Assembly (NCBI GenBank): GCA_003278875.1
Contig: QCCQ01000005.1
Span: forward strand, 27,561-91,560
Length of the DNA stretch: 64,000 bases
Reading direction: 5' to 3'
Source: Prochlorococcus sp. AG-347-L21
Lineage (GTDB): Bacteria > Cyanobacteriota > Cyanobacteriia > PCC-6307 > Cyanobiaceae
This document shows, piece by piece, positions 3,622 to 5,376 of the stretch. Position 1 is the first letter of the stretch, and each line of letters begins with the position of its first letter. The position numbers and the translations under genes were made by a program. The notes under the pieces were generated by a model that ran no database searches, had not been told where the DNA came from, and worked only from the letters and a program-made list of their open reading frames with translations.

Positions 3622-5376
3622 TCAAACTTTCAACAATTTAGAAGTTGTTAATTTAAAAACTTTTTTATCTATAGTTTCTTGATTTAAAAGTATATCAACT
3701 AATTTATCTAGTAAGACTCTATTTTTTTTCAATATTTTTATTGAATTATTTAATGAAATTTTAGAAATATTTATGATTTCATTATCTATTCTAGAACTGG
3801 TATTTTCTGCTATGAGAGGCTTTCTTCTAAATAATCCATCTCCTAAATACATTTCATTATTATCAGAATCCATTGAAACTGGACCAATGATTGAAAATCC
3901 ATATTTTGTAACCATTTCCCTTACGATATTCGTCGCATAAGAGATATTATTCATGGAGCATTGTGTAATTTCACCTTCCCCAAAAACTATCGTTTCTGCT
4001 GCTCTTCCAGCTAGAGCAATTTCAATTTTTGAAAATAATAATTTTTTTGAAATCAATCCACTAGAAATTACATCTTCATCAGGGCATATTTTTGTATACC
4101 CTCCTATAGATCCAGATCTAGGTAAAATCGTAATTTTATCAACTGATTCAATTCCATTTCTCACAGCGGATACAATTGCTCTGCCTACTTCGTTATAAGC
4201 AATGATTTTTTTCATATTAGGAGAAGTTATTAATGAGGATCTGAGGCCAATGGTAATTTTATCAATAGCATTTTCTATATGAAGATCACTGATTAATTTA
4301 GATTCGTCTCTTGCACAGTGAATAGCGCTCTCGTTCATCAAGTTTGCAAGATCTGCTCCTGAAAATCCAACTGTTCTAGAAGCCCAATATCCTAAGTCAA
4401 CTTCGCTTGAAAGTGGTTTGGAAAGTGAGTGAACTGAAAGAATTTTTTTTCTTCCATCTAAATCTGGAAGCATTACTTCAATTTTCCTATCAAATCTACC
4501 TGGTCTTAATAATGCTGCATCCAAAATATCTGGTCTATTTGTTGCTGCCAAAACAATAATCCCAGAATTATCAGCAAAACCATCTAATTCAGTTAGAAGC
4601 TGATTAAGGGTTTGTTCTCTTTCATCATTTCCACCTCCGATCCCAGACCCTCTTTGCCTACCAATGGAATCAATTTCATCAATAAAAATTATACAAGGAG
4701 ATTTTTCCTTAGCCTTAGAGAATAGATCACGAACTCGGCTTGCTCCAACACCAACAAAAAGTTCTACAAACTCTGATGCCGATATTGAGAGAAAAGGCAC
4801 TCCAGATTCACCAGCAATTGCTTTGGCTAATAATGTTTTACCAGTTCCTGGTGGGCCTATTAGAAGAACTCCCTTAGGAACTTTTGCTCCAAGATTTTCA
4901 AATTTCTTTGGTTCTTTCAAAAATGTTATTACCTCTTTTAATTCCTCAGCGGCTTCAGGGACGCCAGCTACATCATCGAATCTCGTTTCTACATCATCAA
5001 TAGTTACAAATTTAGCTTGATTTTTGGTAAAACCAAATGCTCTGGAAGCCAATTTTGATGTACTCCTCAAGATTAAGACTATAGCTAATATAAAAATCAG
5101 GAAAAGACTTATTGAGGCAAATGAATTAGCAGCTGAGGCTTCTTTTCTACTATTGTTAATAGTGAGATCTATCTTATTTGCAGTAGCCTTTTCAAGGATT
5201 AATTGATCGTTGTAGAGGATAGGTATTTTAAATTTATCGCCATTCTTATACAGAACATCAATTTCTCTCTGCCTAGGATAGAAAAATATTGATTCTATTT
5301 TCCCCGTCTCTATATCTTCTAGAAGATCCGAATAACTTGATTTAGAATCTGAATATGAGAATTGTGATCTAAACAC
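3622..5376 (-). CDS. FtsH-family AAA protein with a degenerate, probably inactive, protease site
   Basis: FtsH is a membrane-anchored AAA ATPase joined to a zinc protease. This 584-aa homologue has an N-terminal soluble segment, one helix at about 88-103, an intact ATPase (Walker A GPPGTGKT at 174-181, Walker B IIFIDE at 229-234, arginine-rich SRH with RPGRFDR at 291-297) and a C-terminal peptidase-like domain. The HExxH site is replaced by NEVGR at 395-399, so both zinc His are lost, and the third ligand Asp is Asn477 in MNNIS. It starts at a GTG; an in-frame stop two codons upstream rules out a longer N-terminus, so the usual first membrane helix is absent. Family membership is sure. Chaperone or regulatory subunit action, as for plant FtsHi proteins, is inference. 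Confidence 0.92.
   Translation of the reverse strand: MFRSQFSYSDSKSSYSDLLEDIETGKIESIFFYPRQREIDVLYKNGDKFKIPILYNDQLILEKATANKIDLTINNSRKEASAANSFASISLFLIFILAIVLILRSTSKLASRAFGFTKNQAKFVTIDDVETRFDDVAGVPEAAEELKEVITFLKEPKKFENLGAKVPKGVLLIGPPGTGKTLLAKAIAGESGVPFLSISASEFVELFVGVGASRVRDLFSKAKEKSPCIIFIDEIDSIGRQRGSGIGGGNDEREQTLNQLLTELDGFADNSGIIVLAATNRPDILDAALLRPGRFDRKIEVMLPDLDGRKKILSVHSLSKPLSSEVDLGYWASRTVGFSGADLANLMNESAIHCARDESKLISDLHIENAIDKITIGLRSSLITSPNMKKIIAYNEVGRAIVSAVRNGIESVDKITILPRSGSIGGYTKICPDEDVISSGLISKKLLFSKIEIALAGRAAETIVFGEGEITQCSMNNISYATNIVREMVTKYGFSIIGPVSMDSDNNEMYLGDGLFRRKPLIAENTSSRIDNEIINISKISLNNSIKILKKNRVLLDKLVDILLNQETIDKKVFKLTTSKLLKV

Follow-up and report, generated by a model that had tools for sequence, protein, structure and literature searches.

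Can an FtsH protein that has lost its zinc-binding residues and kept its ATPase motifs still serve the cell, and is such a loss the peculiarity of one strain or the property of a whole lineage? The question is raised by an ftsH gene found at 3622..5376, on the minus strand, of the window, as the 64,000-nucleotide stretch of Prochlorococcus sp. AG-347-L21 DNA analysed here is called (assembly 84% complete, 49 contigs). The gene belongs to the picocyanobacterial FtsH4 class, denominated class D here, and encodes a predicted pseudoprotease of 584 aa. Translation starts at a GTG, and there is hardly any room upstream, as the open frame spans 586 aa against the 584 aa of the ORF. The nearest named relatives carrying a copy are Prochlorococcus single-cell genomes, with 98% identity in the gene.

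Zinc site and ATPase motifs

By descent the protein is an FtsH, featuring an AAA module with Walker motifs and second region of homology (SRH) followed by an M41 domain. It passes the TIGR01241 (FtsH_fam) profile with 645.8 bits (cut-off 600), matches PF00004, PF17862 and PF01434, and can be aligned to solved FtsHs over nearly its full length. The match to the N-terminal domain PF06480 is marginal (25.8 bits, cut-off 25.5). Walker A (GPPGTGKT, residues 174-181; 4834..4857), Walker B (IIFIDEID, residues 229-236; 4669..4692) and the SRH with both arginines (ATNRPDILDAALLRPGRFDR, residues 278-297; 4486..4545) are intact, as the preliminary description had stated, and the same holds for the pore-loop FVG (residues 207-209; 4750..4758). 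These and all other coordinates within the gene refer to the minus strand.

The HExxH motif and the distal Asp of active FtsH zinc metalloproteases are both missing. Alignment to solved FtsHs places NEVGR (N395-E-V-G-R399; 4180..4194) where E. coli FtsH has HEAGH, a replacement correctly read in the preliminary description, and N477 (3946..3948) at the third-ligand Asp position. The Peptidase_M41 domain (residues 384-574; 3655..4227), delimited by Pfam, contains no histidine in a residue scan. Histidine ligands at shifted positions, which had been indicated beforehand as evidence against inactivation, are ruled out, since residues 377-584 are wholly histidine-free and the histidines of the protein are at 316, 353 and 366. 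The M41 domains of other site-lost proteins have 0 to 4 histidines. The motif state is that of the FtsHi functional class, ATPase motifs being kept and HExxH lost.

Neither HExxH nor HxxEH was found in any of the 120 nearest homologues listed (best 120 of 4839). Position 395 is Asn in all 120, position 399 is Arg in 117 and Lys in 3, and position 477 is Asp in 100, Glu in 10, Asn in 9 and His in 1. Both His are thus replaced throughout this set, but most of it does not share Asn477. The would-be catalytic Glu396 is kept in the window, and in 118 of the same 120 proteins. The groups of genomes are called below HL, which includes the window, and LLI, labels presumed from the genome sizes of relatives. 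At the 45 HL loci the zinc site reads NEVGR in 44, window included, and NEAGR in one; 39 of these loci have Asp at position 477, and the remaining 6, among them the window, Asn. The replacement of all three ligands, as initially described, therefore holds for the window strain but not for its group.

An AlphaFold2 model of the protein was built from 62 sequences (mean pLDDT 74.3, pTM 0.50). Within M41, pLDDT is 89 at residues 391-410, 74-91 at 441-490, 60-73 at 411-440 and under 50 at 501-520. The best Foldseek match is the E. coli FtsH model (TM by query 0.68). The second is a chain of the Ycf2-FtsHi motor (TM by query 0.52), and several such chains are found in the best 50.

Orthologues, locus and branch of the loss

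Most of the 60 genomes that reach 95% completeness in the window's genus feature four M41 matches (52 genomes); three were found in 7 and five in one. The proteins fall into classes named A, B, C and D in this analysis, the window gene being D. HExGH and the Asp are present in every class A, B or C protein read. The MIT 9515 orthologue of the window gene carries the name FtsH4. Picocyanobacterial FtsH4 is described, in a passage of PMC6300248, as homologous to Synechocystis FtsH1, with a homology "less obvious than the others"; a review equates the isoforms of Prochlorococcus in another way. Class B is reported to be homologous to Synechocystis FtsH3. A tree of 51 FtsHs, all with the site intact, groups class D with a fourth class of other cyanobacteria (support 98/87, then 99/97). 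The locus is likewise recognizable. Class D is divergent from rpmF, encoding ribosomal protein L32 (5508..5678, plus strand, in the window), in all the 37 D loci checked, site-intact and site-lost alike. The check covered HL, SS120-, MIT9211-type, G373, Synechococcus- and Cyanobium-type genomes, and LLI, G278, G375 and G376 lie outside it. A sequence named Prochlorococcus (L014) was rejected as a class D orthologue, being class-B-like and without the neighbours.

The window protein was searched in 48 genomes of the other genera of the family, and class D was read in 45. It was not found in two of the 48 (G280, where the peroxiredoxin neighbour lies at a contig edge, and G368), and went unread in one (G287). 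The site reads HE[IV]GH in 28 of the 45 orthologues and is lost in 17, as QIIGK (10), QIIGR, NEVGK, NEAGK, HEAGR, NEIGR, YEIGR and RNASK (one each). Lineages lacking the zinc site are the HL, LLI and SS120/MIT9211 groups and the genome G278. The NEAGK sequence is that of a genome of 1,751,080 bases (L221), which we take to be SS120. Neither the LLI group (QIIGK/R) nor G278 (RNASK) retains Glu396. At position 399, corresponding to the second His, Arg or Lys is found in all 17 losers outside HL and at all 45 HL loci, and G373 (HEAGR) is the sole loser read to retain the first His. From G373 and the common basic residue, we infer that the second His was lost first.

The 13 loser genomes included in a species tree (28 joined proteins of the ribosomal operon region, 26 genomes, 5105 columns) form one clade with 100/100 support. 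The other 13 comprise 11 site-intact genomes, one in which D was not found and one in which it was unread. HEIGH is retained in the sister of the loser clade (MIT 1307), and the full zinc site in the MIT9313-type genome. A gene tree deprived of the zinc-site columns separates the 16 losers from all other sequences by a single branch (98/98); both trees have uneven letter make-up and a very long G278 branch. Because site-lost genomes form one clade, the zinc site was, most simply, lost once, within Prochlorococcus, in the ancestor of several lineages. G278 (L241), a one-contig genome of 1.8 Mb, has by far the most diverged class D protein, with an end branch of about 1.1-1.2.

The first membrane helix, TM1, had also been noted as missing. 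Active FtsHs have two N-terminal helices round an extracytoplasmic domain; in the window protein hydropathy predicts a single one (residues 85-103; 5068..5124), corresponding to the usual TM2, with no TM1 before. The absence is real, but it is not tied to inactivation. Simple hydropathy predicts one helix in 15/15 site-lost and 14/14 site-intact picocyanobacterial class D orthologues, and two in the 5/5 paralogues checked; a relative from outside the family, Microcoleus L010, has one helix at the same threshold. TM1 loss as part of the inactivation is rejected, as orthologues with intact HExxH lack TM1 equally. Judging from this distribution, TM1 had gone before the zinc site did, and its absence is a trait apart. 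Without TM1, the topology of the protein is uncertain, as is its fit into a ring of two-helix subunits.

The gene following class D on the same strand changes along with the zinc site. In all the 9 site-intact genomes fetched it is a full-length UPF0182 gene, with open frames of 929-956 aa. The three such neighbours scanned match PF03699 at E 1e-216 or better, and all nine match the MIT9313-type copy, itself one of the nine, over about 900 residues (tblastn). Among 11 loser genomes fetched, 8 have instead a multi-helix membrane ORF of 252-280 aa after D, and 3, all LLI, have no ORF of at least 110 aa between D and the peroxiredoxin gene. Short ORFs are also found in G373 (272 aa), in L004-L006 (256-259 aa) and in the window (250 aa; 2837..3589, minus strand, directly downstream of ftsH). 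Four of the short proteins, that of the window included, were scanned without any Pfam match. Yet a profile of 9 short proteins aligns to one of 9 UPF0182 proteins in hhalign (columns 32-282, probability 96%, E 4.5e-9), and the motif LSDW is common to both. The window ORF, which evolves fast, is likely what is left of UPF0182's N-terminal membrane region. At four Cyanobium-type loci UPF0182 shares the strand of D but lies some 3 kb downstream. Among the best 120 of 4800 UPF0182 matches, the named Prochlorococcus are MIT 1307, MIT 1300, MIT 1341 and one MAG; as most rows are nameless, this is weak evidence on any survival of the non-membrane part elsewhere in loser genomes.

By these comparisons, the non-membrane part of UPF0182, roughly 650 residues, is lost on the same branch as the FtsH zinc site. 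The joint branch suggests that the protease activity and this part served one function, since abandoned. On the tree the co-loss counts as a single coincidence, and these Prochlorococcus lineages lost genes generally; for these reasons it suggests, without proving, a shared function. It is conceivable, if rather doubtful, that in the HL/LLI/SS120/MIT9211 ancestor FtsH and its operon partner UPF0182 were disarmed together, the one losing its zinc site and the other its large non-membrane domain, so that a membrane protease system became a purely ATP-driven membrane machine, retained since then by the most abundant of all photosynthetic cells. A literature search gave no title devoted to UPF0182 function.

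Selective constraint and proposed function

Walker B, FVG and N280 are present in all of 16 site-lost proteins, and both GPPGTGKT and the two SRH arginines in 15; the exception in either case is G278 (GSPGTGKT, and R to K in the SRH). Median pairwise dN/dS, from pairs with dS 0.05-1.5 only, is 0.057 for the N-terminal part, 0.024 for AAA and 0.093 for M41 of class D in HL (41 sequences), and 0.133, 0.062 and 0.115, respectively, in LLI (11 sequences). The corresponding values in HL are 0.032, 0.005 and 0.017 for class A (35 sequences), and 0.035, 0.014 and 0.040 for class B (13 sequences). Almost no pairs of site-intact Synechococcus-type orthologues fall within the dS limits. Constraint on D is weaker than on A and B along the whole length, and the contrast between M41 and AAA in HL is just slightly above that of A and B. 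The ratio of M41 to AAA protein distances in classes A, B and C is 2.47, 2.78 and 1.45, respectively; in class D it is 1.93 where the site is intact and 2.89 in the losers. The rise in losers amounts to a modest relaxation of M41, although the value is near those of A and B. In site-intact FtsHs, 33 M41 columns are invariant or nearly so (a single letter in 34 or all of 35), and at 26 of them the residue persists in the majority of 16 losers. Those altered in at least half are 395, 399, 419, 456, 473, 474 and 477, and five of the seven (395, 399, 473, 474, 477) are at or beside ligands. In AAA 6 of 119 such columns are altered in losers. On these measures the M41 domain of site-lost class D is still under purifying selection. 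The candidate pseudoprotease with a live ATPase first proposed for the window is thus supported at the level of sequence, and its motif state is clade-wide.

Six HL assemblies (G099, G125, G136, G141, G163, G165), 86-97% complete, lack D. The peroxiredoxin gene flanking the locus on the far side (2237..2821, plus strand, in the window), which serves to show whether an assembly contains the stretch, was likewise not found in these six at E <= 1e-60; the two genes may have been deleted together or may fall in a gap of the assembly. One in-frame TAA occurs in the D gene of a fragmented HL assembly (G036:C145:1494-3245).

Site-lost class D FtsH is tentatively placed in mixed hexamers, as a subunit that is driven by ATP but does not cut, cleavage being left to a second FtsH. 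By prediction it would pull on substrates without cleaving them, because the zinc-binding histidines are gone while the ATPase motifs are all present. The M41 domain would be retained as part of the ring, and Arg or Lys399 could pair with Asp, Glu or Asn477, substituting for zinc. The partner would be class B FtsH, because Synechocystis FtsH1, the reported homologue of class D, forms the FtsH1/3 complex, a heterocomplex described as essential in that organism in a passage of PMC11287208. Threading and cleavage would be divided between subunits, leaving fewer cutting sites per ring. A role as chaperone, in assembly or as regulator, envisaged in the preliminary description, is similarly something that may be inferred from the protein's features. 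In a published passage on MED4 at growth light, transcripts are balanced among FtsH1-3 and FtsH4 is not named as a notable part, and a metaproteome figure legend names FtsH1-3 only. As these passages do not feature FtsH4, class D protein may be scarce.

Site-lost class D could alternatively form a hexamer of its own, working without cutting as an ATP-driven unfoldase, an extractor of membrane proteins or a pulling motor, like the plastid Ycf2-FtsHi-FtsH12 complex. Conservation of the ATPase and pore motifs and the Ycf2-FtsHi chains among the Foldseek matches are consistent with this, and a precedent is offered by the plastid ATP-driven motor, in which the protease activity of FtsH12 is reported to be dispensable in a passage of PMC8042743. 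However, the plastid complex is itself mixed, synteny links no translocon-like partner to class D, and M41 is conserved, although a pure motor would have no evident use for it. This arrangement is therefore considered somewhat unlikely. More improbable is a regulatory, dominant-negative subunit that enters rings of active FtsH and acts as a brake on them. The data speaking for it are the same that speak for the mixed hexamer, as sequence cannot separate a helper from a brake; against it, variable stoichiometry and regulation would be predicted, of which the data give no sign, the MED4 transcripts being neutral.

It is very improbable that the site still binds metal or cuts by some other chemistry, as might be imagined from Glu396, kept in HL and in nearly all the 120 homologues listed, and from Asp or Glu477 in 110 of them, since the window M41 domain is devoid of histidine, every loser read has Arg or Lys at the second ligand position, and LLI and G278 lack the Glu as well. 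Equally hard to sustain is the view that the gene is decaying and about to be lost from a streamlined genome: dN/dS values higher than in A and B in every domain, the shortened or missing UPF0182 neighbour, the in-frame stop in one HL assembly and the stretch absent from six would fit, but dN/dS is far below 1 in all three domains, no stop is found in the other class D rows among the matches listed, and the gene persists across the whole of a clade of deep ancestry.

Two regulators linked in print to FtsH1/3 were considered as candidates for co-loss with the zinc site, and both were rejected. PhoU was not found (TIGR02135, E <= 0.001) in 26 of the 27 Cyanobiaceae genomes searched, so that its absence does not follow zinc loss. 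The RCC307-type genome has a match under the curated cut-off, and two of three other cyanobacteria searched are over it. Fur-family genes are present in 30/30 genomes. At least three PF01475 matches were found in G338 (two being weak fragments), in the MIT9313-type genome and in all eight genomes of Synechococcus/Cyanobium type that were searched. There are two in G276, G277, G326 and 13 of 14 loser genomes, and one in G105. The loss of one Fur paralogue thus seems to precede that of the zinc site.

Comparison with known FtsH systems

FtsH-family pseudoproteases are known mainly from plastids, and their origin is described as unresolved in a passage of PMC8197885. A bacterial conversion for which site-intact orthologues, branch and unchanged locus are all in hand makes the forms before and after directly comparable, and the truncation of UPF0182 matching the zinc loss provides a lead to the function of an uncharacterised protein family. 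One FtsHi has already been reported from P. marinus SS120, and is very likely the product of the same gene as class D. The relevant passages (PMC6460958, PMC8197885) name this one strain, whereas the present analysis covers the whole clade. Extent of the loss, single origin, constraint, TM1 as a separate trait and UPF0182 truncation were not found in the literature searched, consulted in part and with subscription journals mostly outside.

Synechocystis FtsH1 (slr1390) is connected to the window gene by a link taken from print, whereas the assignment made here is to one of four classes, at an rpmF-linked locus across Cyanobiaceae. Most orthologues of the picocyanobacterial FtsH4 class read outside HL keep the zinc site, in contrast to the window gene. 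If FtsH1 is the homologue, Prochlorococcus can do without proteolysis by one of the subunits of a complex that Synechocystis needs to live, and the question arises whether threading or cutting is the essential part of the FtsH1/3 complex. Two of three cyanobacterial FtsH complexes (FtsH1/3, FtsH2/3) are mixed according to the published passages at hand, which report a 1:1 ratio for mixed hexamers; Arabidopsis estimates differ. In thylakoids, the protease activity of type-B FtsH is reportedly dispensable, a result attributed to Zhang et al. 2010. The loss of activity in type A/B hexamers is experimental, whereas in the class D losers it is natural and fixed, and mixing is a proposal.

The comparison with plastid FtsHi, made at the outset, stands as an analogy. 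FtsHi1-5 of Arabidopsis and Chlamydomonas are, as the class D losers, M41-family AAA proteins with HExxH replaced, and FtsHi5, given as WAAGR in a passage of PMC11266112, has Arg at the second His as class D losers do. The window FtsH differs in being a single copy, in a bacterium, with one transmembrane helix and no known translocon partner. Shared descent is not supported, as the losers nest in an otherwise site-intact cyanobacterial class, in trees made without plant sequences. Because they nest among site-intact orthologues and the loss falls within Prochlorococcus, the zinc site would, most simply, have been lost there independently of plastid FtsHi, by convergence.
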